53,494 nucleotides of DNA from a virus, in the IMG/VR virus record IMGVR_UViG_3300023174_000220, positions 1-53,494 of that record; one strand, given 5' to 3'. The notes beneath the pieces were generated by a model that was not told the DNA's origin, did not search any database, and saw nothing but the letters and a program-made list of their open reading frames with translations. This document shows, piece by piece, positions 26,747 to 44,800 of the stretch. Every line of letters starts with the position of its first letter. The stretch's first letter is position 1. Both the position numbers and the translations under genes were made by a program.

Positions 26747-28816
26747 ATGGCTTGGAATTCATCCGAAAATAAGTCTGCTGGTCAAAAGCAGACTAAATCC
26801 GCCATTGGTTACGGCGCGCCCGTATCAAGTAACCCAAGTTACACGGATAAGCCATACAGGGACTCGTGGGATATTGAGCGTGCCTATAGAGAGGGCATGC
26901 AGAAAATTACCTGGGTTAACAGGTGTATAGATGCAATTGCTGGGAACCAAGCAAGACTTCCGATAATTCTAAGAAAAGACAATTCAAAAGACGGCGAAAT
27001 CGTAGTCGGCCGTGAGGCCAAGCGTTCTTCATTGCTTGAGCTCCTCAACGTTAAATCAAATATCGGCGAGAACTCTTTTATTTTCAGATACAGACTTTCT
27101 GCCCAGTTACTACTTGGTACGCGCGGAGCATTTATCGAAAAGATTCGCGGACGAGATGGTGGCGTTATTGGGCTGAACCTTCTTCCGCCACAGTCAACTG
27201 CACCAATCCCTGACGCCAGAACATTTGTTTCTGGGTACGAAGTGCAGATGCCTTACGGTAAAAAAGTAATAATGAAGCCAGAGGATGTTGTCTGGATTAG
27301 AAGGCCTCACCCGCTAGACCCATATCTGTCGCTAACTCCATTGGAAGCATCTGGAGTTGCCGTAGAAATAGAAAACCTAGCCAAGTTGTACAACAGAAAC
27401 TACCTGCTTAATGACGGAAGACCTGGTGGATTACTTGTTGTCAGAGGTGAGATTGACGAAGACGATAAAGAGGAATTACGCAATAGATTTAGGGGTAATT
27501 TAGGGAAAACTGGGCACACAACAGTTATCGCTGCAGACGAAGGTGTTGACTTTGTTGATACTTCGGCAAACCCAAGAGACGCTGCCTACATACAAATGCG
27601 TCAAATTACAAAAGAAGAAATTCTTGCTGCGTTTGGAGTTCCAGAATCAGTAATTGGAAATGCCTCGGGACGAACGTTTAGTAACTCAGCTGAAGAGATT
27701 AGAGTTTTCTGGGTAGAGACAATGTTGCCTCACTTGGAGCCAATAGCAAGAGCTCTCGATGAACTTGACGAAAAGTATTACCTTGACTTTGACACAAGCG
27801 AAGTTCCAATTTTGCTGCTTTACAAACAGGAACGTGAAAGATACCTAAAAGACGAATTGGGTCAAGGTCTTATTTCCGTGAATGAATACAGACTTGCGAG
27901 CGGAAGAAAAGAAGTTGAAGCAGACCTTGCTGATTCATTACTTATGAATCCAAACCTGATTCCTATTGCTAATACAAAAAAGAAGATGGAAGAGAATGCT
28001 GCCCAGGTACCTGGTGGCGCTCCTGGAGCACCAGGAATGCCTCCAATGCCCGGAATGCCAGGCATGCCCCCTGTAGAAGGAGCGGCCCCACCGTTGGACC
28101 CAAACACCATGCAAGGAGCAATGGCTGAAGTCGCTGCTGGTGGTTCTGGAGACATGGCTCAGACAACACTTCCACCAGAGGTCGCCGGAATGGCACCAGC
28201 AACCGGAGCAGCCCCAATCCCACAAGGTATGGCTAGCGACCCGCAAGATGGCTTTCGGTACAAAACAGCACTAACCGAGGATTTTGATAAATCGGAAATG
28301 GCGATTGAGCGCTGGTCAGAAATTCTATCCAGAGGAATCGAGAGGGTCGTTGAAAGACAGCAAAGGGTTGTCCTGGAAAAGGCTGGCAGCAGCAAGTCCA
28401 AGAAAGCTCTGATGTCTGGGACTCTTGACCTTGATTCAATTTTTGCTACAGATACATGGAATAAGCAAATGGAAGACGACTTGCGCCCTGTTATTTCTGC
28501 AATAATCAATGACTCTTTTGAATTTAGAAAAGAATCGTATTCTCAAAAAGGACTCAAGCCGAGAACAATTGCGCCTGCGACAATTAAGAAAAATATCGAT
28601 TCACAGATATCAAGAATCATCTCAATCAACTCATGGATTCGTTCTTCAATGGAGGAAATGATGATGAAATCATTCTCCCACGCTGGAGAAGAGCAAAGAT
28701 TTTCCGTCTTTAGAGAAGAGCTTGTGGGCATGTACGCAAACATTCTTGCCAAGGACCAGTTGGAGATTTCAGAAACTGAAGCAAAAAATGCATGGACGTT
28801 TGGACAGGTTGGATAG
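26747..28816 (+). CDS. Portal protein (HK97-like) with extended C-terminus
   Basis: 689 residues. Residues ~1-410 are a typical portal: ITWVNRCIDAIAGNQARLP near the start, a clip/stem region (EDVVWIRRPHPLDPYLSLTP). Then come FGVPESVIGNASGRTFSN and ETMLPHLEPIARALDELD. EYRLASGRKEVEADLADSL marks the conserved end of the portal core. A Pro/Gly/Met-rich linker follows (residues ~425-500, GMPPMPGMPGMPPVEGAAPP). The last ~185 residues are helical (RWSEILSRGIERVVERQQRV) and resemble the extra region of other phage portals that contacts the head interior. The portal ring is the DNA entry point and probably nucleates the prohead. Confidence 0.9.
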   Translation: MAWNSSENKSAGQKQTKSAIGYGAPVSSNPSYTDKPYRDSWDIERAYREGMQKITWVNRCIDAIAGNQARLPIILRKDNSKDGEIVVGREAKRSSLLELLNVKSNIGENSFIFRYRLSAQLLLGTRGAFIEKIRGRDGGVIGLNLLPPQSTAPIPDARTFVSGYEVQMPYGKKVIMKPEDVVWIRRPHPLDPYLSLTPLEASGVAVEIENLAKLYNRNYLLNDGRPGGLLVVRGEIDEDDKEELRNRFRGNLGKTGHTTVIAADEGVDFVDTSANPRDAAYIQMRQITKEEILAAFGVPESVIGNASGRTFSNSAEEIRVFWVETMLPHLEPIARALDELDEKYYLDFDTSEVPILLLYKQERERYLKDELGQGLISVNEYRLASGRKEVEADLADSLLMNPNLIPIANTKKKMEENAAQVPGGAPGAPGMPPMPGMPGMPPVEGAAPPLDPNTMQGAMAEVAAGGSGDMAQTTLPPEVAGMAPATGAAPIPQGMASDPQDGFRYKTALTEDFDKSEMAIERWSEILSRGIERVVERQQRVVLEKAGSSKSKKALMSGTLDLDSIFATDTWNKQMEDDLRPVISAIINDSFEFRKESYSQKGLKPRTIAPATIKKNIDSQISRIISINSWIRSSMEEMMMKSFSHAGEEQRFSVFREELVGMYANILAKDQLEISETEAKNAWTFGQVG

Positions 28817-28924: not shown

Positions 28925-31042
28925 ATGTCAAATGAAGCATTCGAATACAAGTCATCGGCGCACGGCTCTGAGTCCATCAAGGGAACGGTCAGCCTAGACG
29001 AGGCTCAGGGGATAGTCGAATGTTTCGTAGCTGGAATTGGTAATAAAGACTCAGTTGGAGACGTATGTGCTTCAGGAGCCTTCACAAAGAGCCTTCTTCG
29101 CAGAAAGCCAAGAGTCGTATGGGGCCACAACTGGAATGACCCTATTGGTAAAGTATTGGAAATATACGAAGTTGGTCCACAGGACCCACGCCTTCCACTG
29201 AAAATGAAACTTGCCGGGATAGGCGGTTTGTTTGCAAAAGTTCAATTTAATCTAAGTTCAGAAAAAGGAAAAGAAGCATTTGCTAATGTCCACTTTTTCG
29301 GAGAAGAACAAGAGTGGTCGATTGGATACAAAACACTAAGAGCTCAGTTTGACCAAAAGTCGCAAGCAAATATTCTTTACGAAGTTGAACTCTACGAAGT
29401 TAGCCCTGTTCTCCACGGAGCCAATCAGCTAACAGGAACAATATCCGTTAAGGCAGATGATTCCGCCTACGGAGGTTCAGTAGCAATGATGCCGCAAAGA
29501 GAAGAGAGCAACGGCTACGAAGAAATGGAGAAGGAACTCTCCAATCTATTCGGTGCAAAAGTTTCTGTTCATTCAATCGATGGCGACGAGGTCGTATTCA
29601 CACGTCAAGAGATGAACGGTGCGAAGAAGTACAAGTGCGGCTTCATGAGAAATCAAGGCCGATACATGTTCGGAACCCCTGAAGTAATCAACATTCCACA
29701 ATCACCTGTTCGCTCCCCACAATCAGCACCAATGCCCGTGGTTAGTGGAAGACCAACTCCACCGAATGACCCACAACGCGTCATTAGACCACAACAAATG
29801 CCTTCAATACCAGTTGCGATTAAGCCGAGCGACAATGGGCTGATGATGATTCCTCTTCCTGCTGTTCAGTATGACTCAAACGAAAAACCATCGCTGGACA
29901 AAGAAGAAGCAGACCTACGCGATGCGTTGCTGAAGATAGTTTCACGCCACGGAAAGTTCAACGAAGACTCAGATGGCGTATGGGCTGGATACAGCCCTGC
30001 AGAAGAAAACGAAGTAGCACGTATCGGTGTTAAATGCTCAAACTGCGTCTTCTATCAAGGCGGCTCAAAGTGCAAAATTATTGACATGCCAGTTGAGCCA
30101 GAAGGGAAATGCAGATTTGCTGTTATTCCAAATGGGATTGTTTTGAGCAGTGGTTCCAAAGAACTCGAAGAGCATGTTTCTGAAGCAGAAAATACAATCA
30201 TCGATGTACTAGAACTAAAGTACCCAGGCGAGTTTGTTCTTGGAATTGTAAGAAATTCAGTCGGCAAGAAGAGGAAGAAAAGAAGGAAATACAAAGACCT
30301 TTCCGAGTATGGCGACGACGACGATATGGGTGAAAAGTCGTACCTAATACCAGTCGAACCAAATTTTGCCTACAAGGTAAAAACTGCTCTTGACCCAATA
30401 TTTGATTACCACAGAGCGGAAACTTTTGTTGACCCCGAGGGCATCGTAATCACCTCTGGGGTTACTGAAGATTTGATAGACGCAGTCGATACAGCTATCC
30501 ACAACTTAAAAAAAAAAATCTCAGAACATGAGATAGAGGGCAAGTCCCTTGGTTACAGAATAGGTCGGTCGCTCGGCTCAAGAGCAATTGATAGACCAAA
30601 TATAGGTGGTGGTAGACGTAGGGGTCGTGGTTTCGGCATGCCTGATGGCGACCTTGACCCAAGAACAAGAGTCGACAAAAACAGAGACGGAACACTTTTC
30701 GACAACGTCCCAGGTTGGGAGCAGCCTGACCCAACCCCGGATGGTCCAGGTTCGATAAATAATTCCAAGCTGTCATCTAGGCAAAAAAGAGACGTCTTGA
30801 AGATATCGGGCGAGGGTGGCAAAGAAAAAGTAAAACCTGGTAAGACAATTACCAGCAGAGAACCTAAGTATGAAGTAGATGACGTAAGCGACATTCTTGA
30901 CGGCGACGTAAAGCCAGTGGAGAAGGCTACGAAAAAAGCAGTTGCCAATAAAGCTCCTGTTAAAAAAGAAAAAGTAAAACGAGGAGAACTAGATTTCGCT
31001 AAGGGTCCCAAAAAAGATAAGACACCATCACTATCCTCTGGT
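28925..31042 (+). other. Polyprotein segment 1: prohead protease plus Cys cluster and linker
   Basis: 706 residues up to the first L-S-S-G. The HK97-type serine protease is shown by VVWGHNWNDPIGKVLEI (His), QEWSIGYKT (Ser) and LYEVSPVLHGAN (Glu), in the normal order and spacing. Next comes a small domain (residues ~190-240). Then CX2CX8CX12C ending in EGKC, which recalls high-potential iron-sulfur proteins but could bind zinc. The rest is charged and probably flexible. The enzyme would normally digest scaffold inside the prohead and then itself. Confidence 0.85.
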
Positions 31043-34000
31043 GAGGAAAGACAGCCACGTACTGCAGTTGCAATGCAGATGGACCCAAAAAATTCGAAGC
31101 TTGCAAGACAGATTGATTACGACCCACAGAATGGTGACCTCACCATTTATTACAGAGATGGCAAAAAAGAAACATTCAATGATGTCCCTTATGAACGCGT
31201 GCGTAAGGCTGGATTTGACGACAAGCCAGATGCATTAATCAGTGCACTACAGAGAGAACAAAAGAAACCACAAGGCAGAATTAGTCTTGCATCCGGGGAG
31301 CAAGAAAAGAGACTTACCCGCCACTCTGGTGACCCAAAATTTGAGTCACTCGTCTCCCCTGAGGAATTAGATAAGCGCAAGAAGTTTGAAGAAGTAGTTC
31401 AAGACTGGAAAGACTCTGGTTACGGATGGGAAGACGTTCCTAGATACAAGCCAGACGTCTACAAGTCCCCGGATTATTTGCGTGGTAGGGAAATGGGCGT
31501 CAATCAGGCCAGAGTTATGTGGCTTGGAGATAGCACGGTAGAGAGACCAAAGGGATTCAACGAAAAGCAAAAAGCCTCACTTGATTATCAAGAGTGGTAT
31601 TCACGAATGGTGATGAGGGCTGGAGCTTTTCTAGAAGCGCAACGTGGCGATGACAATGAATTCTACAACGGCATGGAAGATGCTATACACCAATTCATGT
31701 ACAACAATAGACCAGATATAACAACCTACAACATCGATGGAGATAGAAAAGAACCGATGGCCGACTGGATGCGTCAGTACGGATTCGACCCAGGCTCACC
31801 GACTCCATTAAGAAAGAAAAAAGAAGTAAAGAAGAGAAGTTCACTCTCCCTCTCCTCTGGAGCCGACGACGACACAAAGCCAGGCTTTGATGAACAGAAT
31901 TACGAAAGCGATACCAACGTAGATTTCTACGACACCTTACTCGACATGATGGGTCCAGAAGAAAAAAGACCAAAGACCACTTCTCGCAAAAAGCCAAAAG
32001 ACATGAGCGATGAAGAGATTTATCGCAAGAGAACAACAACCGGAGCATCACTCCAAGACGTTGCTGAAGAGCTTGGCCTAACAAGGATGGAAGTCAGACG
32101 CAGAGAGCAGCGCCACATGCGCAAAATGCGTAACGAAAAAGAAGGTGTATCGCTATCTTCTGGAGCAAGCGAAGACTGGGCAACGGCTAGGGGTTATGAG
32201 CCAGACAGATTTGACCTCCGTGAAACCATGAACCAAATTGGTAGAGGAAACGTGATGGCCATCTCTGGCGGTCGTGTAGAGCGTAGAGGAAACGAGATGG
32301 TTCTTCCATCCACGAAAGACCAACAGGTTGTTATTGGGTACAACTCAGTACCAGACCTCTACTACGTCAGAGCTGAGCAGAAAATAAATACTGGCAAGGA
32401 CAAGGGAACAAACAGAATTCTTGCGCAATGGGACGAAGTTTATGCTGATGAAATTGGTGAAATTGCATATCAGGCAAGTCTAAAGCCAGCAAACCTAAAT
32501 AGCGAGAATAAGGAATACTGGAAGCTCGGTAAAGGAAACCAATTCGCAAACAGATTGGTCGACAGGCGCAGCGGAAAACTTGTAAACAGAGATTCAAGAA
32601 ATCTCCCAGCAAAGCCAACAACAGAAGAGAGTCCTTCGCTTTCATCTGGTGGAAGGGGTCGCGACTACTACAACTACGACATTGAAACCACTGATGATGG
32701 AAGCAATCTGCTTGACCAAATACACGATGCATTAGAGGAAAATCCACTCATCAAGGATGACATCACCGCCGATATGGCGGACATGCTTGGTGGAGATGGA
32801 ATAGTTGAAGCTAATGGTTTCGACACGCAAAAGGCTTTTAATCTTGTAACTGGGAGCGAGGATGAGTTCCAGGACTACCTAGACATCGTCGATGATGCAA
32901 TGAACGCACTAGAAAACGGCTCTCTTGCAAAACACAAAGCAACAGTGCGTGATGCGAACGTAAGACTCGATTCAGCAAAACCTGGAAGTAATGAAGCAGG
33001 AAAGCTCGAAGCACTTCGCGACAGGTCGTATGAGTGGATTGGTGACATCAACAAGTACTCACGTGTTTCCACAATTAAAGACAAGAAGAATATTGAAGCT
33101 AGTGACGTAGCAATACGAATGATTTCCAAGGAGCAGGATGCTCTCTGGAATGCGCGCTCATCAATAACAGAGAAGTACATCGAGGATATTGCTTCTGCCG
33201 GAAAAGAATCAAAGCGTCGTGTACCAATAGACGAAATTGATTCCGATACAGGAGACATCCCTGATTACAAATTGTCACTTTCATCTGGCAGTGTCTTTGG
33301 CGACAAACCAGCATCAAAAACTTTGGCAAATAAATCCGATGGTCTCGCTCTGTCGTCTGGTGAAAACAAAAAGATTTACGATGAAATAGGGAAGTCCATT
33401 CTTGAGGCTCTCATCGAGATGGAGAAAAATCCGACCGCAACGTACTGGGACGTACCATGGAGAACCCCTACTCTTTACGCAAAAAACCCAACGAGAAGCC
33501 GTCTGTATCAGGGTATGAATTCACTCTTACTCGCCAATTCTCATAGACAGAATAAGTACAGGGGTAATTTCTGGGCTGGCAAGACGCAATGGGCGAAGTT
33601 CGGCGGGAAGGTAAAGGATGGCAAGGATGGGGTAAATATCCTTGTCCCGAGAGAAGGGGCAACTGGAAAGTACTTTATTGTTCAGACCGTCTACAACATG
33701 GATGATATAGAAGGTCTTCCAGATGCATATGTAAAGAAGCTGTTGGATGTTGGTAAAGAGCGCCTTGACCCTGCACTCAAGATAAAGGATGCTGAGTCCG
33801 TAATAGAAGAAATTAAGCCAGTCATTAAGTTTGGTGGAGATAGGGCTTTCTTCTCTCCAAGCCAAGATTTAATACAGATGCCTTTGTACGAAATGTTTAA
33901 GTCTCCAGAACAGTACTACGGAACACTCTTCCACGAACTAACTCACTGGACAGGTGGAGCAGGACGCATAGATAGGCCAACCGTAAGAGATTATGGAAAA

Positions 34001-37000
34001 GATAAAAAGGTTCGTGCAGCCGAGGAATTGATTGCAGAAATGGGTTCTTCGTTTCTTCTAGCGGCAGTCGGAATAACACCAGAGGTAAGAAAAGACCATG
34101 TTGTCTATATAAAGAGTTGGATTTCAAACCTCAAAGAAGACCCGGGCGCATTTGTTAAAGCGATGGAAAAAGCGCAACAAGCTGCTGATTACATTATGGA
34201 TAGGTCCCCAACAATGAGGAGACTCGCAGGCGTTCCAGATGATGAGCGCAAAGGCAAACCAGATACTGCAGAAAAAGCCGCAGAAGCTGTTGCCGCTGTA
34301 ACCGATGAGGCAAATGACTCTGTAATCGCTCTTTCATCGGGCACTCAAGTTGGTGTTAGAAAAGTAAAAGAACTTAGATACTTCGGCGATGAAAATCAAT
34401 ATGGCTCAGGAGTAACTCAAAGAGATTCAAGCGGAAGAATTCTTGATGAATCTGGAGCACTTTCACTTTCGAGTGGTGCAAAACCAATCGTAAGCCTTGA
34501 CGGTAAAACAACGATTCCAAGACTGGACGACTCTGTCTCGTATAGAGAAAAGTATAAGTTCCTTCCTGATGAATTTGAACCAACAGAACAGCAAAAGGCT
34601 TCAATAGACACGCTTGTTCATATGTTGGAAAGTGAGACACCAGGAATTGTTGCGATTGGCGCTGGTGCTGGTTCTGGAAAGACCACAAACCTTAAGCAGA
34701 ATGCCCGTGCTGTTGCAGCGCTTTACCCTGGTAAGCAAATCTACTACACCGTATTCAACAGGGGAAATGCAAAAGACGGCAATAGAGTAATGCCTAGAAA
34801 TACGGGTGTTGCAACAGGTAATCAAATAGCGTATTGGTCACTTGTTCTTGGAACCGGAGATGCGTTCTATGGGGCTGGAACAGCAAGAAAGATACAGCTT
34901 GGAGTTGGTCCAAGAGACTCTAAGAAGTTGCGAGGAGCAAAACGCAACAGCATAAACGTTGCAACCACGTTTGAGGGAGAAACGAAGGAATTTGCAGGAG
35001 AGATACCAGGATACAGAGAACTTGGGTACACAAGCTATGACTCTGCACCAAATATCGCAGAACGCCTTGCTAAAGATGGGATTGTTGACGAAGAAACTGA
35101 TGATGGTTTTACTATTTCTCAAAATCTCAAAAAAGCTCTTAGCAGGTTTGCTGAAAGCTCGGATGAGAAGCTGTCAAAACAACATTTCCTACTTCGTGAT
35201 ATAGAAAAAATTCAGGCATTACAAAAGGGTGAACCAGTACCAACTGAAGATTCAATCGATGAAAAAATGGTTCAATATGCACAAATGCTTTGGGATGAAA
35301 CAGTTGACCCAAAATCAAACGTGCTTATCCCGCAGGACTATCAAATCAAGATGTGGGCCCTTACAAACCCAGACCTCAGGTATGACAAAGGATTGATTGG
35401 TCACAGGCCAAACGAAACAGTGTTTGATAAAGTTTTTCTTGGAACCGTTGAGGAAATGAACTCCGGAAAAATAAAAGTCGGAGACCTTGTAGAATTCAAA
35501 ATTCCAGAAACTGGAGAAAAAGTTGCAGCAGTAATACGAAAACTAAACCCTCCATCAAAGAAAGAAACAAAAAAGGGTGAGCTATCAGGCAATAGACAGG
35601 TAACCGGAACTGTATCGATTGTTTCTGTTACAAGTGATAAGCCTCTTGATGTATTCATGTTCGACGAGGCCCAAGACGTAAACCCCGTGTTAGCAAAAGT
35701 ACTCGCTGACAATGCAAAGAACATGCCGATAATAATGGTTGGCGACTCACGTCAAGCAATCTATGGGTTCAGAGGAGCCATGGATGCCCTAGAGAAAGCC
35801 AATGCAACATTCAGACTTCCTCTAACACGTTCATTCAGGTATGGAGCAATTCCTGCATATTTGGCCAATGTCGTGCTGATGCAAGGCAATATAGATGATT
35901 TTAACTTCTATCAAAACATGGGAACACCAGAAAAAAACATATGGCACCATGTTGTTGGAGAGGCGCAAAATGTTGTTATAAACGCGCTCAACATAAACGG
36001 GCCAGATGGAAAAATACTCCCCAAAAAAGAACTTGAAAAGAAACTTAAATTCATAGAAGTTAAATACAAGCTTGGCGGAAGAGCTGTCGACTTTAATGGC
36101 AAAAACGAAAAAGAAATAAAAGACATCATTTCAAAACTTTACGACGAACATGTCCCACGCGCTGAAGGTCAGATAGTCGAGGACATGACTGGCGCTGACG
36201 CTGTTCTTACATCGACCAACTCGGGTGTAATGGTTGAGGCATTGAAGGTAATACAAGATGGCATCAATGCACATCAAATTGCATACCTAGACCTTGACGG
36301 AATAGAAGATATAAAAAATCCACAAGAGCTAGCTGGAAGATTGAGGACAATTTCTGAAAAGTACACCCTCGATGGTGTTGCTGTAGACCTTATAGAAATA
36401 CTAGAAAAAGATGGTAGAGACTCGATGCTCAATGCCATCAATGAACTTAGAGAGGAATATGCTCCAGGTGGAGCTGACGGGAAAATACCAGCCATTGGCA
36501 TACCTGCCGACACGCATGAAAAGTTTCTTGATTTTTTCACTCAACTCGACTGGATTGTTGGTGACCTTGATAAGAAGTTTGGAATCGAAGGAAGACCAAA
36601 ACCATCTAAATTACTTAAAGACGTATGGAGATTTGACAAGAAAAAGGGCAGATACCCATCAAAAGATGAGATGCTGGCAAAAATTGACAAGATGATTAAG
36701 GGTGGAGAATCCGAACTTCGCACTCTTTACAACCTTGCTTACCCCAGGTCCAAGGATGGAGGGGTAAGAGGTGATGCAAAAGGGGCAAGATTCTTTAAAG
36801 ACCTTTTGCGCCCACAAGGCCAAAAATATACTGACATAAATGGAACTGAGGTTAAGTACCAAGGCCTTAGACCAATGCGTGAAGGAATCAACCTTCCAAA
36901 TATGGAATCTGGTCGAGACCACATAACTACCGAAGAGATGGACAGAGTCGGAAAGCTTAAGCCTGGAACAAAATCTGGAAGCAGCCAAAAAATTTCCTGG

Positions 37001-39997
37001 ATAATACCCAAGAAGGAAGAGAGCGTATCCGATGGTGAGGTATTCGTAAAACTTCACATCGGAGAAAACGGAAAACCATCTGGGGCGTTGATAATTGCAG
37101 GCGATGGAGCGCACGGAGGAAAGTACAAAGTTAGAAGATGGAATAAAGCCAAGAAAACCTGGAGCCCAATCGAAGAGGGGAAACCAGGGAAGATTGACTA
37201 CCACGGTGACATATCAAAAGTTATAAAAAAGATGAAAGCTGAATACCCAGAAGCCGTAATCGAATTTAGGCAGGGACTAATACAGCAAGTTGGTACAGCT
37301 CAGACATTCCCATCAGACATACCTGATGATTTTGTCCCACCAATGAAAGGTGATTTGCCAGATAGTTCTGTGCCAAGAGCTTCGCTTCCAGGGTTCTTCA
37401 TACAAGGAAAAGACAGCGAAGAAACTGCGCGTCTCGCCAACGAACTCGGAAACAGGGTTAGACAACTTGCCACGGAAGGGAACACGGATACCGACATTAT
37501 GACGGTTCATGTTTCCAAGGGCAGGGAGTGGAAGAGAGTCAGGCTCGCTGATGATTTCAAAAATCCTGAAGACATGGTCCCAGTGATACCAGAAGAAGAA
37601 TTAGCAAAGTTGAGTCCAAAGGACAGACTTGCTGTCGAGAGACAGCTCCAATTGATGCGGAGAGAAGAGCACAACAAGGTATATATTGCAATAACCAGAG
37701 CTCAAGAGCAAATAGATATTGGCGCAGTTCTTGCAAAACTTTATTTTGATGATTCACAAAACGCATCCATAAAAAGTGCAAAAGATAAAATTGTAGAAAA
37801 TCCAGATGGAATATATGACGAGCTTCAGGCTCCTGCTGGTTTCTACGTTCCGTATTCTGGTGATACAGAAGCACGCGATGCCGCCAGAAAAGAACGCAGA
37901 AAGAGATTGGATGAGTCTTTCGATAGATACGTCAAGTCACAAGGAAAGACTAAAGATGTCACTCCAGAAGAAGATGATGAACCAGAGGTGGATGACGAAT
38001 CTGGCGGTTTTGACTCTGGTGACCCTGATTTTGTTGATGTTGCTGGACCTGATGATGATGGAGCTAAAGAATTCGACGAAGAAGATGGCGATATGCAGTC
38101 ACTCTCCCTTTCTTCAGGAGCAAAAAAGAAGAAAACCAATAGAGCAAATAGGCGTCTTCCATATAGTGAGCAAGAGAGACAAAGTCTTGCCGACAGAGAC
38201 ATATTGCGTTCAAAGAAAATACCTAAGAAGCGCAAACCAGCTCCGTCAAAGGATGAGTTTGACGACCTAGCTCTTGCCTCTGGAGCCAATACACCAGAGG
38301 GAAGATACGCCAGAAGACTCAGGTCACTAAGCCTTTCGAGCGGTAACAATGAGCTTGGCGCTGGAGCACAGAATCAAAGAATAAGCGGAAAGAGATTCGC
38401 CCGCAATATCTCCGGACCAAAAGACCTTGCATCGATAAGAGTTGATGGTGACCCAAGCAAAGACCCAAACGCAAAGAAAAAAATTGAATATGCGATGAGT
38501 TTCTGGCGTGGTGTCAGGGAGCGCGGAATTGCTTTTGACCCCCAAGACGCATCACAGGATAGAAAGTCGATAGAAATTAATAGCGCCATTTCTTCTGTTT
38601 CCAAATCCATGGCCACGCGACCAAAAGTAAAAATTGGTAAAGTTTCACAGAATCAAATTAAAGATGATGTCAACCCAGACGAGTGGTTTGTTCCAGTATC
38701 AAAACTTAGGGATGCAATCAGAATCCCAACAGAATTCTCCAACTCCCCTGCAGACCCATCCAATCCAAATAGCAGAATGATTGCACGATGGACCCAAACA
38801 AGGCCATTGAGCAACGAAGAGTTGGGCAAGATGCTTTCTCTCAGCAAGACCGACATTGCAAAACTGTCAGACGATGATGCAGGAATAACCCACGACTCGG
38901 TTAGATTCCTGCTTGCGGCCATGGGGCAGCAGGAAGGTTTTGAGGCATGGAACTTTTTTGCTCCAACATCTGCTGCCGAAGATGGAGTTTCCGCCATGTC
39001 TCCTTCCGAGAAGTTCGTAGAGAATCTCGGAAGAGCCAATATGCGAGACAGATTTATTATTGAGACCTTCGGAAAAGACGCTTTCCCTTACTGGATTGAC
39101 AGGGATGAGAATACCGTCATCGGCCAAAAAGAGTACTCATCGCTAGGCGAGGTCAGCGAGATGTCGAAGTTCAGGTCATCGGGTCTGTTTAGTAATAAGA
39201 GGAACGAATCAAACTTCTCCTCAACAGCCGAGGAGATGCTTCTTGAAGAGGCAGTATTTGGTGGAGATGACACTCCAAGCGACCTGGTTAAGCAGTCTGT
39301 CGTGGAAGCAGCTTCAGCCCCATCAGACAAGACCAGCCGAGAGCAGTTTGACGTAGACCAGCTCCTTGAGTCACTGGGTATCGATAAGAGCGATAAGTGG
39401 CATGAAGAACTAAAGAAGAGAATGGTCGAGTCTTTCGGGGTTGACGATGTCGGCCTGAATACAAGAGAGATTGCTAGAAACTGGGAGGCCGGTGGAGTCC
39501 CAACCACGTACATAAATGAGATGATTAGAACAGGGATGATTCCAGATGCAAAGTCGGTATGGAAGAAAGATGAATCTGGTAAAAAGCTAGACCAAGAGCT
39601 GGCAGCATCTAAGCACTCCGTGTATGAAGCCCTGTATGAATTTACTCAGTCAAAGCACGCTGCTGATAAAGCCAAAAACACTAGACGGAATAGGGACTAC
39701 ATCCTTAATTCTTCTGACTTCACGGTCTCCCATAAGGGTGTGGCTGCCAGGAAGGGGGCCACATTCTCAAAGAAGACTGGCGACGAGAGAAGGTTTAGTC
39801 AAGGAGAACTGCAGGGTGTTGTAAATCGTTTTAATGAAATTTTTGGAACTAATTACAAGATTGATGACATCTTTAGTGCTGAGCAGTTACGTGCTGCAAC
39901 GAAGAGACTAAGAGAGGAAGGCAAGACTTTGTATGGAGACGATGCCTCCGAACTCGGTAAAAGGGTAATTCTAAAAAAAGATAAAAGCAAGAAGTAG
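28925..39997 (+). CDS. Giant multi-domain polyprotein: prohead protease, ArdC-like antirestriction domain and UvrD/FBH1-like helicase separated by L-[S/A]-S-G motifs
   Basis: 3690 residues from ATG 28925; a TTG at 28913 is less likely. The prohead protease (His 68, Ser 132, Glu 158) is at the N-terminus. A Cys cluster (371, 374, 383, 396) lies near 385. Twelve copies of L-[S/A]-S-G follow (Leu at 703, 788, 976, 1077, 1239, 1452, 1476, 1803, 1848, 3062, 3117, 3137). They split the rest into segments of 85, 188, 101, 162, 213, 24, 327, 45, 1214, 55, 20 and 550 residues. These include a KTSC-like domain, an HTH-like segment, an ArdC-like protein and a UvrD-like helicase. The motifs lie in polar or charged linkers, so they look like processing sites for the attached protease. 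Processing is inferred, not shown. The gene lies in the usual protease slot after the portal. Confidence 0.85.
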   Translation: MSNEAFEYKSSAHGSESIKGTVSLDEAQGIVECFVAGIGNKDSVGDVCASGAFTKSLLRRKPRVVWGHNWNDPIGKVLEIYEVGPQDPRLPLKMKLAGIGGLFAKVQFNLSSEKGKEAFANVHFFGEEQEWSIGYKTLRAQFDQKSQANILYEVELYEVSPVLHGANQLTGTISVKADDSAYGGSVAMMPQREESNGYEEMEKELSNLFGAKVSVHSIDGDEVVFTRQEMNGAKKYKCGFMRNQGRYMFGTPEVINIPQSPVRSPQSAPMPVVSGRPTPPNDPQRVIRPQQMPSIPVAIKPSDNGLMMIPLPAVQYDSNEKPSLDKEEADLRDALLKIVSRHGKFNEDSDGVWAGYSPAEENEVARIGVKCSNCVFYQGGSKCKIIDMPVEPEGKCRFAVIPNGIVLSSGSKELEEHVSEAENTIIDVLELKYPGEFVLGIVRNSVGKKRKKRRKYKDLSEYGDDDDMGEKSYLIPVEPNFAYKVKTALDPIFDYHRAETFVDPEGIVITSGVTEDLIDAVDTAIHNLKKKISEHEIEGKSLGYRIGRSLGSRAIDRPNIGGGRRRGRGFGMPDGDLDPRTRVDKNRDGTLFDNVPGWEQPDPTPDGPGSINNSKLSSRQKRDVLKISGEGGKEKVKPGKTITSREPKYEVDDVSDILDGDVKPVEKATKKAVANKAPVKKEKVKRGELDFAKGPKKDKTPSLSSGEERQPRTAVAMQMDPKNSKLARQIDYDPQNGDLTIYYRDGKKETFNDVPYERVRKAGFDDKPDALISALQREQKKPQGRISLASGEQEKRLTRHSGDPKFESLVSPEELDKRKKFEEVVQDWKDSGYGWEDVPRYKPDVYKSPDYLRGREMGVNQARVMWLGDSTVERPKGFNEKQKASLDYQEWYSRMVMRAGAFLEAQRGDDNEFYNGMEDAIHQFMYNNRPDITTYNIDGDRKEPMADWMRQYGFDPGSPTPLRKKKEVKKRSSLSLSSGADDDTKPGFDEQNYESDTNVDFYDTLLDMMGPEEKRPKTTSRKKPKDMSDEEIYRKRTTTGASLQDVAEELGLTRMEVRRREQRHMRKMRNEKEGVSLSSGASEDWATARGYEPDRFDLRETMNQIGRGNVMAISGGRVERRGNEMVLPSTKDQQVVIGYNSVPDLYYVRAEQKINTGKDKGTNRILAQWDEVYADEIGEIAYQASLKPANLNSENKEYWKLGKGNQFANRLVDRRSGKLVNRDSRNLPAKPTTEESPSLSSGGRGRDYYNYDIETTDDGSNLLDQIHDALEENPLIKDDITADMADMLGGDGIVEANGFDTQKAFNLVTGSEDEFQDYLDIVDDAMNALENGSLAKHKATVRDANVRLDSAKPGSNEAGKLEALRDRSYEWIGDINKYSRVSTIKDKKNIEASDVAIRMISKEQDALWNARSSITEKYIEDIASAGKESKRRVPIDEIDSDTGDIPDYKLSLSSGSVFGDKPASKTLANKSDGLALSSGENKKIYDEIGKSILEALIEMEKNPTATYWDVPWRTPTLYAKNPTRSRLYQGMNSLLLANSHRQNKYRGNFWAGKTQWAKFGGKVKDGKDGVNILVPREGATGKYFIVQTVYNMDDIEGLPDAYVKKLLDVGKERLDPALKIKDAESVIEEIKPVIKFGGDRAFFSPSQDLIQMPLYEMFKSPEQYYGTLFHELTHWTGGAGRIDRPTVRDYGKDKKVRAAEELIAEMGSSFLLAAVGITPEVRKDHVVYIKSWISNLKEDPGAFVKAMEKAQQAADYIMDRSPTMRRLAGVPDDERKGKPDTAEKAAEAVAAVTDEANDSVIALSSGTQVGVRKVKELRYFGDENQYGSGVTQRDSSGRILDESGALSLSSGAKPIVSLDGKTTIPRLDDSVSYREKYKFLPDEFEPTEQQKASIDTLVHMLESETPGIVAIGAGAGSGKTTNLKQNARAVAALYPGKQIYYTVFNRGNAKDGNRVMPRNTGVATGNQIAYWSLVLGTGDAFYGAGTARKIQLGVGPRDSKKLRGAKRNSINVATTFEGETKEFAGEIPGYRELGYTSYDSAPNIAERLAKDGIVDEETDDGFTISQNLKKALSRFAESSDEKLSKQHFLLRDIEKIQALQKGEPVPTEDSIDEKMVQYAQMLWDETVDPKSNVLIPQDYQIKMWALTNPDLRYDKGLIGHRPNETVFDKVFLGTVEEMNSGKIKVGDLVEFKIPETGEKVAAVIRKLNPPSKKETKKGELSGNRQVTGTVSIVSVTSDKPLDVFMFDEAQDVNPVLAKVLADNAKNMPIIMVGDSRQAIYGFRGAMDALEKANATFRLPLTRSFRYGAIPAYLANVVLMQGNIDDFNFYQNMGTPEKNIWHHVVGEAQNVVINALNINGPDGKILPKKELEKKLKFIEVKYKLGGRAVDFNGKNEKEIKDIISKLYDEHVPRAEGQIVEDMTGADAVLTSTNSGVMVEALKVIQDGINAHQIAYLDLDGIEDIKNPQELAGRLRTISEKYTLDGVAVDLIEILEKDGRDSMLNAINELREEYAPGGADGKIPAIGIPADTHEKFLDFFTQLDWIVGDLDKKFGIEGRPKPSKLLKDVWRFDKKKGRYPSKDEMLAKIDKMIKGGESELRTLYNLAYPRSKDGGVRGDAKGARFFKDLLRPQGQKYTDINGTEVKYQGLRPMREGINLPNMESGRDHITTEEMDRVGKLKPGTKSGSSQKISWIIPKKEESVSDGEVFVKLHIGENGKPSGALIIAGDGAHGGKYKVRRWNKAKKTWSPIEEGKPGKIDYHGDISKVIKKMKAEYPEAVIEFRQGLIQQVGTAQTFPSDIPDDFVPPMKGDLPDSSVPRASLPGFFIQGKDSEETARLANELGNRVRQLATEGNTDTDIMTVHVSKGREWKRVRLADDFKNPEDMVPVIPEEELAKLSPKDRLAVERQLQLMRREEHNKVYIAITRAQEQIDIGAVLAKLYFDDSQNASIKSAKDKIVENPDGIYDELQAPAGFYVPYSGDTEARDAARKERRKRLDESFDRYVKSQGKTKDVTPEEDDEPEVDDESGGFDSGDPDFVDVAGPDDDGAKEFDEEDGDMQSLSLSSGAKKKKTNRANRRLPYSEQERQSLADRDILRSKKIPKKRKPAPSKDEFDDLALASGANTPEGRYARRLRSLSLSSGNNELGAGAQNQRISGKRFARNISGPKDLASIRVDGDPSKDPNAKKKIEYAMSFWRGVRERGIAFDPQDASQDRKSIEINSAISSVSKSMATRPKVKIGKVSQNQIKDDVNPDEWFVPVSKLRDAIRIPTEFSNSPADPSNPNSRMIARWTQTRPLSNEELGKMLSLSKTDIAKLSDDDAGITHDSVRFLLAAMGQQEGFEAWNFFAPTSAAEDGVSAMSPSEKFVENLGRANMRDRFIIETFGKDAFPYWIDRDENTVIGQKEYSSLGEVSEMSKFRSSGLFSNKRNESNFSSTAEEMLLEEAVFGGDDTPSDLVKQSVVEAASAPSDKTSREQFDVDQLLESLGIDKSDKWHEELKKRMVESFGVDDVGLNTREIARNWEAGGVPTTYINEMIRTGMIPDAKSVWKKDESGKKLDQELAASKHSVYEALYEFTQSKHAADKAKNTRRNRDYILNSSDFTVSHKGVAARKGATFSKKTGDERRFSQGELQGVVNRFNEIFGTNYKIDDIFSAEQLRAATKRLREEGKTLYGDDASELGKRVILKKDKSKK
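30508..30518 (+). other. A11 homopolymer inside the polyprotein gene
   Basis: Eleven adenines in the frame coding L-K-K-K-I near residue 529. Slippage by one base in either direction gives a stop within about ten codons (TGA at 30529 or TAG at 30534). That would release a protease-only product of about 535 residues. The site contains the A-AAA-AAA heptamer known to promote slippage. Confidence 0.6.
31043..31297 (+). other. Polyprotein segment 2: KTSC-like domain
   Basis: 85 residues. The part IDYDPQNGDLTIYYRDGKKE followed by ETFNDVPYERVRKAG resembles the KTSC domain, a short beta-rich fold often found beside nucleic-acid enzymes. It is flanked by motif copies on both sides, so it would be released as a single small domain. 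Confidence 0.5.
31862..32164 (+). other. Polyprotein segment 4: helix-turn-helix-like segment
   Basis: 101 residues, acidic first half, then MSDEEIYRKRTTTGASLQDV and AEELGLTRMEVRRREQRHM. The latter reads like a helix-turn-helix of the sigma-70 region 4 or resolvase type. If released in the host it could bind DNA and alter transcription. Assignment is by pattern only. Confidence 0.4.
33362..34342 (+). other. Polyprotein segment 8: ArdC-like antirestriction protein
   Basis: 327 residues bounded by motif copies. The N-terminal part (YWDVPWRTPTLYAKNPTRSR, then YRGNFWAGKTQWAKFGGKVK) follows the ArdC single-strand DNA-binding domain. The C-terminal part is a zincin with HELTHWTGG (His 1670 and 1674). 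It continues with AAEELIAEMGSSFLLAAVG, which supplies the third ligand, then KSWISNLKEDPGAFVKAMEK. In plasmids ArdC enters with DNA and protects it from restriction. Enclosure in a head polyprotein suggests delivery by the virion. Confidence 0.8.
34478..38119 (+). other. Polyprotein segment 10: UvrD/FBH1-like superfamily 1 helicase
   Basis: 1214 residues between motif copies. Walker A is GAGAGSGKTTN (Lys 1919), motif II is FMFDEAQDVNP (Asp 2247). Motif III is MVGDSRQAIYGFRGA, then TRSFRYG, motif V HVSKGREWKRV and motif VI NKVYIAITRAQEQ. The order and details (DEAQD, GDSRQAIYGFRGA) are closest to FBH1-type UvrD helicases. Large insertions lie between motif III and motif V (about 550 residues). 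Such helicases displace recombinases from DNA, which may help the entering genome. It is unusual as part of a head protein. Confidence 0.85.
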
Positions 39998-40078: not shown

Positions 40079-40137
40079 TTAGACCATTAACAAAAGGTAA
40101 CACCAACTGGTGATTGCCTGTAAATTTCAGGAGTCAT

Positions 40138-41784
40138 ATGAGCTACGACGAAAAGGCCAATGTAAGCATCGATGCTGATGGAAACGTGCTGAAGTGCGCC
40201 AAGGGTGCCGCCCCTACCGAATGTGGCTTTGTAAAGGGTTCAGAGTTGTGCGCAAAATGTGGCGCGATACCTTTACAGATGAAGATGGTCCCGATGGAAG
40301 ACATGGTCGACGAGGACATGGTCGACGCCGAAAAGCCAATGAAGAAAAAGAATAAGAAGAAAATGATTTCACTTCCAGATGGAAGCAATGAAGAAGAAGA
40401 TGATGACGAAGAAGATGATGACGTACTGGGCGACGGAGAGATTCCGGAAGATGCCGTTGGCATGACAAAGCCAGACCTCAAGAAGCCAAGCCAAAAAGGC
40501 ATGGACATGCAAATGGACGCCATGATGGCAGAGGGTGACGAAGAAGAAGATGACGAAGAAGATGAAGAAGAAGTAGTTGCCGCAGAAGACATGGGCGATG
40601 AAGACGTTTCAGAAGAGGAGCTTGAAAAGGCACTTAACTGGATGAAGAGTCGTCGCATGGCCGAAAAAGGCGATATGGAAGTTGACGAAGAAATCGATGA
40701 AGAAGTCTCGGCGGAAACAGAAGTTCCTGAAGATGAAATGTCGGAAGACGACATCATGAAGGCATTGAATTACGTTCGCAAAATGAAGAAAATGTCAGAG
40801 AAGGGTCTTGAGTCTGATGAAGAAGTTGACGAACAAGTTCTTTTTGACGCAGCAGATGAGGACTGGAACAACCTAAGAGAAGAGCGTATTGCTTCACTTG
40901 GAATCAAGTCAGAAGAAATTGGCATTGATGGTTTTGTTTGTGCTCTTGATAGAAAGGCGCACCCTGCAGGAATGTCGGTGTGTGATGACTGCCCGGGCGG
41001 CTGTGTATCCGAGAAGGGCCTCCCAGGACTTCTCCACGTTGAGGGTCTTGCCGAAAAAGCATTTGATGGTTTTGTGGTTGACTCTGGTTATTCATCAGAT
41101 GCCGACATGTTCGTCATCGACGTTCAGACGAAAGACGGCTCAGTAAAAGAAGTGTTCGTTGATGGAACAACTGCTGAGATTATGGGATTCCACAAACTTG
41201 ACTCAGAAGAATTTGAGCAGAAGTCAGACTACACAAGTTTGAAGCTTGTTGATTTCTCTGAAGCAGCAGAAATTGCAGTTAAGTCAATTGATGGGCATGT
41301 AGTTGCTGTTGAGCCAGACGTATTTGAAGGCTTCGATGCATACGCTGTAGAAATTGATGGAATCGACGGAAAGTCTTATGACGTTTTCGTTGCTTTGGAC
41401 GGAGAAATTCTCGGCTACGACAAGTACGAGCCAGAAGAAGCAGAAGAGATTGAAGCAGAAGCAGCAGAGATTGCCCTCAAGAGAGCATTTACTGATGAGC
41501 AGAGAGAGTCGATGTCCAAGGAAGGCTCAGCCATGTCTGACGGCTCGTACCCGATTGCTTCCGAGAACGACCTGAGAAATGCTATTCAAGCTTTTGGTAG
41601 AGCAAAGGATAAAGACAAGACTAAGCGTCACATCATGAAGAGAGCTCGTGAGCTAAAGTTGGAGAGTCTTATCCCTGCAAATTGGCTCGCAGGAAGCAAG
41701 GAAAAGAGTGACGAGGTTGTAAATGATGCAGATTTCATGGCGGCCCTTGTTGAATTCCAGCTTCTCGAAAATAACATCGACTAA
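40138..41784 (+). CDS. Acidic protein with Cys motifs, PepSY-like repeats and DUF6582-like C-terminus
   Basis: 548 residues from ATG 40138, with AGGAG six bases upstream (the frame is open further, without a better start). Residues ~20-50 hold four cysteines (ECGFVKGSELCAKCGAIP). Residues ~65-260 are strongly acidic and probably disordered. A second Cys cluster follows (SVCDDCPGGCVSEKGLPG). Two PepSY-like units come next; the clearer is DFSEAAEIAVKSIDGHVVAV with YAVEIDGIDGKSYDVFV. The end (DGSYPIASENDLRNAIQAFG, HIMKRARELKLESLIP) matches a small conserved domain found at the end of many phage head proteins (DUF6582-like). It may be scaffold, cargo or protease regulator. Confidence 0.75.
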   Translation: MSYDEKANVSIDADGNVLKCAKGAAPTECGFVKGSELCAKCGAIPLQMKMVPMEDMVDEDMVDAEKPMKKKNKKKMISLPDGSNEEEDDDEEDDDVLGDGEIPEDAVGMTKPDLKKPSQKGMDMQMDAMMAEGDEEEDDEEDEEEVVAAEDMGDEDVSEEELEKALNWMKSRRMAEKGDMEVDEEIDEEVSAETEVPEDEMSEDDIMKALNYVRKMKKMSEKGLESDEEVDEQVLFDAADEDWNNLREERIASLGIKSEEIGIDGFVCALDRKAHPAGMSVCDDCPGGCVSEKGLPGLLHVEGLAEKAFDGFVVDSGYSSDADMFVIDVQTKDGSVKEVFVDGTTAEIMGFHKLDSEEFEQKSDYTSLKLVDFSEAAEIAVKSIDGHVVAVEPDVFEGFDAYAVEIDGIDGKSYDVFVALDGEILGYDKYEPEEAEEIEAEAAEIALKRAFTDEQRESMSKEGSAMSDGSYPIASENDLRNAIQAFGRAKDKDKTKRHIMKRARELKLESLIPANWLAGSKEKSDEVVNDADFMAALVEFQLLENNID

Positions 41785-41804: not shown

Positions 41805-44800
41805 ATGACGGGTGATAAAAACAAGACACGAGTAATCGTTTCTCAACGATTGATATCGCCTCTATCGTGCTGCAATAATTTCAATTCTAAAGCGATTGAA
41901 TTTCGTGCGTCTGTAGTTCAGTCCATTAGTTCTTCACGACTTAATGCTGACGTAGCAGTCAAGGCTGCGATGGGCAAGAAGCCGACATACGAAGATACGG
42001 ATAATAAAAAGCGTGAATTTACTGGGACTACAAAACCGGGTGTGACAGAGATTGCACCAGGAATCCGAGTCGAGGGGAATCAGGCTTGGGAAGAAGGCCG
42101 TGGCTTGGTTTTATACCCTAGCTGGAAATCAAAACGCTCCATGGACCTAGACGCAAATTTTGGTTGGATTAAAACAGAGAAAGACATAGATTTTCAAGCT
42201 GCGCAGAAAAAAAGAAAAGAAAAACCACAGCTTCAGTTCACCAAGTATCAGGTGAGTAAAAAAACAGGCGACGTAATACCTGATTCAGAAGTAAATATAG
42301 ACATGGCTTACCCACATCTTGGTTTGTCGAGAGCGCAAAGAAGAAAAAAGAATAACTATATAAGCAATCCAAAAATGGAATTTAAGGCTGGTCTTCCTGG
42401 TCGCTCTCTTGAATCCAGAGTTCCCGGCGGTAACCTCTTGGCAAGAACTGCAGGACGATTTGGAATAATGAGGGATGCTGCTAACAAATTTAGGTGCCCA
42501 CCAGGAACGCCAGCGGCAAACCAATTCACAGACCACCTTGGCTCCAACTGTTTTGGCGTTAGCGCTGAGAGAGCTGCCAAGTTCATAGCTGAAAAAATTT
42601 CAGATTTAATGAAGGTTAATGACGATTCAATTTCTCTTTCTTCTGGGGCAAAGTCAACATGGAGAGAAAGACTCGGACTTGCTAGGCCAGATGTTGAGTT
42701 ACCTGGCAGAAGTCCATCTTTTGATTTAGAGACAGGCGAAAGGATACCGACAATCCCGGCAGAGATTGTTGATGTTCCGGGTAGGTTGAGATGGTTCAAG
42801 AATGCAACCGTAATCGCACAGAAGAATCTTGCTCGCTCTGAGAGTGTTATTCAAAAGCTTGAGTCAAGAATAGTCACTGGTGATTTCACTCCAGAGCAAA
42901 GGGCAACAAACGTAGATAGACATGCATTACTTCAAATATTGTCTAACCGAGGAATCTGGGACATAAATATTGAGGGAAGATTGTCCGAGAGTGAAGTAAA
43001 TGAACTTATTGCTTCAAGGCTTGAATCAATTCCAGAGTGGTCTTCATTAACAGATGAAGAAAAACTAGCACTATTCACTGCTGACAAAAAAAGATTTTAC
43101 GAGACAGAGAGGGCTATGCTTGACTCGCTTCTTGAACAGTTTGTTATTCGCCCAGAACACATGAGGACGATAGGGACAGTGCAGTTCCGTCAAGCAGCCC
43201 TTCCAGGAAACTCTGAAGCAGACACGCTCTGGGATGCTGGAACAAAAGGTGCAGAAATAAAATCAGTCATAAGAATAAACCTTGCACAAATAATGGAAAA
43301 CCAGGAAAGCCTTATTCCAAATATGTCGGCAAGTGAGAGATTGGTTATTTCAGCTGTTGGCGCAAAGACTGATGCCGAAGCACTAGCTTCTGTTGCTGAC
43401 TTCCTCATAAATACCGAATACACAGCACGTGGCATGGCTGGATTGATTGATGGGCCACGTTCTTTTGCCCGCCATATTATGCTGCATGAAATTGCTCATA
43501 CAATCCAGGGGGAAGCATTCCTTTCGACAATAAAACAGCAGATAGATGCAGTTGGTTACGTACAAGTTCCAGTTATTAAGGATGGCAAATTTACTGGTGC
43601 TCTTAAAGAGGTGTCTGATTTCAAAAAATTGACAGGAATAGACCTTTCTGCTTTGGTGATTAGTTCCCAGGACGATATAAATCTGACAGCGCTCGAAGAA
43701 ACAATGTCGAAAATTGAAAATGTTGCATTTTTAGCTGGAAGCTACCCTGGCCAATACAAAAACCCAGAAAAGATGGAGGTGTACGCACTTGAGTCGACCG
43801 CTGAGCTTTGGGGACTAAGGGAAGAAGGTCTAATATTTGGTGACGACATAGATGATGCGCTTGGGTTCATGGATGACGCAATAGGAGCAAAAGCTTCTGA
43901 GGCTAGAGCAGCAACCGACCTTGAGATGCTTGAGAAGCTTGAGGAGTCATACTTCTCTCCTTACGAAAGCGGAGAAGACGTGCTACCAATAAGGAAGCAC
44001 TTACGTACCGCTATTGAACTAGATAAAAAGGCAATTGCCATAAAGCGCGAAGAACGAGAGCTTACCGCGCACAAAGAAAAAATAAAAGACTTAGACCAAG
44101 ACGGTTTGGCTGAAACACTTGCTAATACTATTTTCGAGATTGAAATACGGAAAGACATATTAAGCAATCTAGAGAAAGAAAGAATTGATACCGAAAAAGC
44201 CGGGCTTCCTCTTGAATCCATAGATGAGGAAATTGAGAGAATAAAATCACCGCTTCGTTTATTAGAGAAGAAGAAGCAAATAGAAATTGCAAAAAATAGA
44301 GACTTCAACTCTGACGGAAAATCTAAGTCGGATAAAGAAATAACAGATATGGCTCTTGAGATTAACAGGGCAAAAACACCAGCTACAGAAGAGATGGTTA
44401 AGCGCAGAGAGACAGAAGCTCGTATTGACTCCCTACGTGGCGAGGCTGAATCGCTAGATGAAAAGTCACTGATGAAGACAATTGCAGACTACGACCTGAA
44501 GGCTTCATCGCTCAAGCCGGACAGCGATGAATACATAACAGCAGTTGCTGACAGAGAGATATTTATCCAACAGCACATAGCAAATCAGAGAGCCGCTGGC
44601 GATACAAGGCCAGAGAGAGCAATCCGAAATGAATTGAAAACAGAAATTACCAAAGAAATTACAGCATCACGCAAAGCTGTCGATGAGGCAAAGAGGGGGA
44701 AACTCAAGCCCCAGAAGATGAAGAGCAAAGAACAAATTGCCCTAAATGCAAAAAAGGAAAGAGCTAAGCACAGGCGGAACATCACCAAGCAGCAGTTCGA

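Follow-up and report, generated by a model that had tools for sequence, protein, structure and literature searches.

Polyvalent proteins are giant multidomain proteins of phages and conjugative elements that are predicted to be injected and have been likened to RNA-virus polyproteins; an assemblin-like peptidase, of the prohead protease type, has been noted in a few of them (Iyer et al. 2017, PMC5512222). In the phages T4 and SPN3US, the prohead protease (gp21, acting on IPI-III and Alt, and gp245, acting at A-X-E, respectively) cuts internal head proteins at a short motif and also cuts itself; targeting peptides are removed, and the products enter the host with the DNA (PMC7411985, PMC10052503). 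We analyzed a stretch of 53,494 bases, the IMG/VR virus record IMGVR_UViG_3300023174_000220 (hereafter the window), in which an open reading frame (ORF) of 3,690 amino acids, polyprotein I, joins an S78 (HK97-type) prohead protease to a chain of modules separated by the motif L[SA]SG. This is probably a phage polyprotein system in which chains of cargo are cut by the S78 protease according to a lineage-specific code, packaged, and injected. An earlier note on this DNA had proposed such a self-processing polyprotein and had stated that no described phage system was like it. The latter statement was too strong, since polyvalent proteins and the ejection proteins of T4 and SPN3US are direct precedents.

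The chains share with polyvalent proteins their embedded peptidases and several unrelated domains (ArdC-N, MPTase-PolyVal, UvrD helicase, helix-turn-helix (HTH), ParB-like, and exonuclease). They differ in that the S78 protease is N-terminal or separate, at residues 30-173 of 3,690 in polyprotein I, and not C-terminal like the assemblin-like peptidase of that framework, and in that a motif occurs at most junctions, is shared across genes, and switches between lineages; the passages of PMC5512222 consulted here describe no repeated cut motif. The recurrent specific site between independent folded units that marks a processed polyprotein is present. In T4 and SPN3US, each substrate is a single protein carrying an N-terminal propeptide, and its site also occurs in the capsid protein, whereas here there are up to 17 sites per chain and the capsid protein lacks the motif. 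As in eukaryotic RNA-virus polyproteins, an embedded protease is combined with repeated short sites of the kind that release many functional proteins, but the present genes belong to the late structural region of a double-stranded DNA tailed phage and the protease is unrelated, so that the resemblance is one of analogy and not of kinship. The papers searched did not describe this combination of numerous sites in one chain with module shuffling and codes specific to the lineage; for phage polyproteins, only the polyvalent-protein framework was met. We regard the cargo concept and most of the domains as known from polyvalent proteins and the enzyme concept as known from T4 and SPN3US; the multi-site, module-shuffled, code-switching polyprotein appears to be new.

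The nearest proteases from isolated phages (38-42% identity) are those of the Gordonia phages GMA6 and DalanDe and the Brevibacterium phage Cantare. These phages have homologous S78 proteases and capsid proteins but no module chain behind the protease, and the motif was looked for and not found in GMA6, DalanDe, Cantare, or Gilgamesh. The GMA6 protease bears an acidic tail that is a separate ORF in the window, suggesting that the module chain was inserted between the two; the acidic protein with its conserved C-terminal domain also occurs at L127 (11956-13410). Two large proteins of other actinophages are also without the motif, DalanDe gp27, a 1,633-aa protease fusion (L129, 8608-13509), and Gilgamesh gp48, which has 4,624 aa, bears no annotation, and is encoded close to the protease (L131, 6979-20853).

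Polyprotein I is a single unbroken frame between the portal gene and the gene for the acidic 556-aa protein, after which a second giant ORF (polyprotein II) follows. The uninterrupted frame and the intact protease triad reported in the earlier note were both confirmed; H68, S132, and E153/E155 are unchanged in an alignment of 17 homologues of the protease. The S78 domain passes the Pfam cut-off, yet its match to NCBIfam proheadase_HK97 (1.7e-12) scores 47.7 bits, below the cut-off of 59. The structural model of the domain had a predicted local distance difference test (pLDDT) score of 64.7. Its top three fold matches in the PDB were all T4 gp21, with 5JBL the best, and were weak (best E 0.034, template modeling score <0.5); herpesvirus proteases were also listed. 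A search of PDB sequences with the domain sequence found no relative.

L[SA]SG occurs 13 times in polyprotein I (11 LSSG and 2 LASG) against 0.21 expected from composition (Poisson P ~1e-19), in keeping with the earlier estimate of well under one. We rejected the copy at residues 407-410 (GIVLSSG) as a junction. It is inside a conserved non-linker domain, where most close relatives have it, and is absent at that position in L004 and in all divergent homologues; 12, the count given previously, is thus the better number of real junctions. None of the Pfam domains of polyprotein I is interrupted by a motif copy. The ArdC-N and MPTase-PolyVal pair, the helicase, and the sigma70-r4-like HTH fall between copies as had been claimed, and the KTSC-like match is below the Pfam cut-off. 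Motif flanks are more polar than the remaining protein (0.705 versus 0.637, p=0.003), which agrees with the polar or charged linkers described earlier. The ArdC module was modeled with a folded core (mean pLDDT 75.7) and with ends below 50 (residues 1-13 and 313-351 of the model) that coincide with, or surround, both flanking motifs. The earlier reader had missed four copies in polyprotein II, as well as a single copy in the putative tape measure protein.

At least 595 close relatives of the S78 protease were found among viral contigs, many of them large, and 80 loci were fetched for comparison. The long protease fusions at these loci contain about 2-17 motif copies each. Four records, 151-170 kb in length, have the motif clustered in three ORFs, namely the protease chain (chain I), a chain following the acidic protein (chain II), and a chain of 1,210-4,250 aa further off (chain III). 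Among 25 non-redundant polyproteins, LSSG was counted 132 times against 2.0 expected and LASG 19 times against 2.25. Each other order of the letters L, S, S, and G was seen at most 18 times in this set, and single-residue variants of LSSG were near background, except for LASG and a slight excess of M/F/V-SSG; the preceding residue is mostly R, S, K, or G. Genome G001 has 20 copies in 12,015 aa of giant ORFs and 1 in 40,815 aa elsewhere, and the corresponding counts for two genomes with other lineage motifs (see below) are 21 and 0 (GFAS in G050) and 14 and 0 (G047). Conservation in homologues had been put forward as a test in the earlier note, and 14 homologues retain the motif behind an unalignable linker, with its four core positions near-invariant and the neighbors not. 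The largest polyprotein seen is a 7,362-aa ORF of G031 (L316-L317, record 27637-49725) with 17 L[SA]SG and six HExxH zincin motifs. A leader of about 75 residues is downstream of the protease in chain I and N-terminal in chain III of relatives, and we consider it the best candidate for a capsid-targeting signal.

Motif-delimited segments match between genomes over nearly their full length, at different positions in the chains. The shuffled modules include an RNase_T/DnaQ-like exonuclease (residues 4-294 of 294 in chain III of G001 align with 1-292 of 292 in chain III of G005), a ParB C-terminal module (3-194 of 194 with 4-191 of 191, at a different chain position), KTSC, and a basic segment of 50-65 aa. 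One module is common to chains II and III of G006. The KTSC-like module of the window is located at other chain positions in L037 and L067/L077, and the 55-aa module preceding the LASG at residue 3117 is found elsewhere in the chains of L051/L067/L077.

Many genomes whose capsid proteins are 69-76% identical lack LSSG and have another repeated motif confined to the giant ORFs. These are GFAS in G050 (21 against 0.28 expected), ISGRM in G047 (13 against 0.01) and similarly in G049, I[ST]GKM in G048, [IV][ST]G.M in G046 and G041, L.SGR in L347, and GL.SS in L348; they came from a scan for the most enriched short patterns, and the expected counts are uncorrected for the patterns tried, so that the claim rests on how large the excess is and on its reappearance in relatives. 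Homologous modules end at different motifs in different lineages. The exonuclease module ends at LSSG in G002 (593-876, within 3 aa) and at ISGRM in G049 (799-1077, within 6 aa), the ArdC module is flanked by LSSG in G006 and by GFAS in G050, and a sigma70-r4-like HTH module of the same kind as in the window comes after a VAGRM motif in the ISGxM clade. Between motif classes, the ends of homology were a median of 30 aa from a motif, where random points were 120 aa away. The ISGxM clade encodes its protease as a free-standing ORF of about 776-881 aa, meaning that recognition of the site would need to occur in trans, and the Pro-rich tail of several of these unfused ORFs itself contains the lineage motif. 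The protease is also unfused in G052, G054, and G056, in which no repeated motif of this kind was found. GFAS genomes fall among LSSG genomes on the capsid-protein tree. One record with GFAS motifs (L330/L229, IMGVR_UViG_3300020179_000051), the protease of which is off the record, has a capsid protein sister to that of an LSSG genome, possibly as a result of recombination between the capsid and the cargo/protease genes. We lean toward the view that the protease and its cut sites have switched together among at least five codes (LSSG, L.SGR, GL.SS, GFAS, and [IV][ST]G.M) in a widespread phage family whose virion cargo is built as polyproteins with shuffling modules, which the prohead protease processes; each lineage would then have a code of its own, to be adopted by any new cargo.

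The residue preceding the motif is also specific to the genome, being Ser in the clade of the window, Gly in G015 (8/8 copies in chain I and 6/6 in chain II), and Arg or Lys in others. Within a genome, chain I and the remaining ORFs agreed in this residue beyond what random pairings gave, in 10 genomes (p=1.3e-4) and in 13 genomes with the putative tape measure protein included (permutation p=1e-5), in a test for which close relatives were thinned by hand and shared ancestry is incompletely removed. In most genomes the putative tape measure protein has a single lineage motif at about residue 555-680 (LASG in the window; KLSSG, RLSSG, GFAS, or IAGAM in others), which suggests that the same enzyme also processes a tail protein. 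On these comparisons, one trans-acting protease that reads a co-evolving cut code would best explain the pattern.

Comparative support is strong for the part of the earlier proposal that made the motif a cut site, because the motif is invariant amid divergent flanks, shuffled modules end at motifs, the change is concerted across the genome, and motifs are replaced at the same junctions. The other part, the assignment of the cutting to S78, is probable but unproven. S78 is present in all 17 of the examined sequences that cover the gene, and the residues just after Ser132 are KT[LI][RN]A[QK] in the LSSG lineages and KT[LI]D[AS][VI] in others.

Several points weigh against our explanation. The substitutions near Ser132 track phylogeny and so represent few independent changes, and the genes of the relatives are longest-ORF calls on metagenomic contigs, most of the records being fragments. 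Every prohead protease studied cuts the major capsid protein (PMC7411985), but this protein was without any lineage motif in 38 homologues. HExxH zincins, which could be the cutters, occur in the giant ORFs of nearly all genomes examined, and a motif in a putative tail protein is a poor fit with an enzyme acting only inside the prohead. The major capsid protein has a long N-terminal extension, the HK97 mature start mapping near residue 152. A conserved L[ST]S[RH], located around residue 95 of the capsid protein in the LSSG lineages, was set aside as an S78 site, since two ISGxM genomes also have it and it does not discriminate between the lineages. In the LSSG lineages the extension holds a conserved L[ST]SREIK[ST]IG (L230, L233, and other loci). 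A sortase site (LPXTG) was considered and dropped, as the spacing does not fit.

The last three points against S78, namely the capsid protein without the motif, the widespread zincins, and the tape measure protein with it, are also those that would favor cutting at the motif by the embedded zincins (MPTase-PolyVal or others), in the producing or the newly infected cell, with the S78 fusion serving targeting or being a historical accident. Zincins are the commonest domain of polyvalent proteins and have been proposed as their processing enzymes (PMC5512222). We nevertheless consider this explanation unlikely. The zincin families vary by lineage, and the ISGxM clade lacks the ArdC MPTase, whereas S78 is conserved throughout; that certain unfused protease ORFs have the motif in their tails also speaks for S78, and cutting of many internal proteins at a short motif is the known mode of prohead proteases (PMC10052503).

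The motif could instead be left uncut and serve as a docking or packaging tag for one trans-acting phage protein, such as the scaffold or portal, with the giant proteins acting intact as polyvalent proteins. Concerted change across genes needs only a common reader, and some polyvalent proteins, such as the N4 virion RNA polymerase, are packaged uncut (PMC5512222). A tag, however, need not sit at nearly every module boundary, and shuffled modules ending at the motif are better explained by release, so that we find a tag distinctly improbable. We disfavor most strongly, and regard as very improbable, the explanation that the motif has no reader and is simply a flexible linker, its copies having spread through recombination or duplication of linker DNA. 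It would account for copies sitting in polar linkers, but 17 motif copies are spelled in 15 DNA versions, indicating that selection acts on the protein, and neither the near-invariance of the four core positions between variable neighbors nor the wholesale replacement of the motif by unrelated motifs in relatives would be expected of it.

Under processing by S78, three giant late proteins would be made as chains of independent modules, with DNA repair and replication enzymes and ArdC/zincin, ParB-like, and effector-like domains as cargo. The leader, adjacent to the protease in chain I and N-terminal in chain III, would recruit the chains into the assembling prohead. The protease would free itself and then cleave every chain, both in cis and in trans, at the linker motif, which in the lineage of the window would be [S/A/T]-L-[S/A]-S-G. 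The freed modules would remain in the head and enter the next cell along with the DNA, as suggested by the protease fusion and the position beside the portal and capsid genes. Each lineage would have its own cut code, with protease and sites changing together.

The features of the window are collected in the table. In both XopAD-type effectors and phage head morphogenesis proteins, it is the C-terminus that the effector-like module of polyprotein II resembles. A Padloc search gave only generic helicase and DEDDh matches.

Table. Features of the 53,494-base window, in order of position.
Feature	Position	Strand	Evidence
Putative tape measure protein, one lineage motif	7451..12379	-	position after sheath and tail chaperone
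LASG, residue 588 of putative tape measure protein	10607..10618	-	
Terminase large subunit	25175..26488	-	phrog_979 3e-104
Portal protein	26747..28816	+	Pfam PF04860 5.5e-50
Polyprotein I, 3,690 aa, S78 protease and L[SA]SG-separated module chain	28925..39997	+	ATG 28925 to stop 39997
S78/HK97-type prohead protease domain, residues 30-173, H68/S132/E153/E155	29012..29443	+	Pfam PF04586 1.8e-11, alignment
LSSG, residue 407, probably no junction	30143..30154	+	
Leader element, residues ~540-610, IGRxLxSRxxDRPxIGGGRRR...DxNxDGxxFD	30542..30754	+	~40-73% identity, I versus III across genomes
LSSG, residue 703	31031..31042	+	
KTSC-like module, residues 724-758, weak	31094..31198	+	Pfam 0.047, below cut-off
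LASG, residue 788	31286..31297	+	
LSSG, residue 976	31850..31861	+	
Sigma70-r4-like HTH module, residues 1038-1070	32036..32134	+	module of the same kind behind VAGRM in the ISGxM clade
LSSG, residue 1077	32153..32164	+	
LSSG, residue 1239	32639..32650	+	
LSSG, residue 1452	33278..33289	+	
LSSG, residue 1476	33350..33361	+	at low-confidence end of ArdC module model
ArdC-N (1482-1574) and MPTase-PolyVal zincin (1622-1747) module	33368..34165	+	Pfam 1.1e-12 and 7.8e-36
LSSG, residue 1803	34331..34342	+	near-invariant columns behind unalignable linker, 14 homologues
LSSG, residue 1848	34466..34477	+	
UvrD/RecB-type SF1 helicase module, residues ~1892-2930	34598..37714	+	Pfam 4.9e-10, phrog_1967 3.5e-36
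LSSG, residue 3062	38108..38119	+	
LASG, residue 3117	38273..38284	+	
LSSG, residue 3137	38333..38344	+	
Acidic 556-aa protein, conserved C-terminal segment, no motif	40114..41784	+	segment fused to protease in Gordonia phage GMA6
Polyprotein II, 2,565 aa, with four motif copies and a zincin, a ParB-like, and an effector-like module	41805..49502	+	
LSSG in polyprotein II	42636..42647	+	
HEIAH motif of a zincin in polyprotein II, possible alternative cutter	43485..43499 (approximate)	+	
LSSG in polyprotein II	45579..45590	+	
LSSG in polyprotein II	45894..45905	+	
Effector-like module, residues 1978-2164	47736..48296	+	phrog_7625 1.4e-23; NF041399 1.4e-24 (partial match)
LASG in polyprotein II	48324..48335	+	

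The host is probably actinobacterial, given a WhiB-like ORF recognized by eye in G001 and the nearest isolated proteases in Gordonia and Brevibacterium phages. Three contigs from metagenome-assembled genomes were uninformative as to the host, being binned to unrelated phyla; two of them have unfused proteases without the motif, and the third (L355) has a 2,698-aa frame in which no repeated motif was seen. The family is presumably of mostly freshwater origin, a guess from what such records usually are. If our interpretation is correct, tailed phages use polyprotein processing like that of RNA viruses to load many host-takeover proteins into one capsid, and the motif would list the injected proteins from sequence alone in hundreds of uncultivated phages. 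The closely related proteases with unrelated motifs would also be a natural series of specificity switches for the study of prohead proteases and cargo loading.
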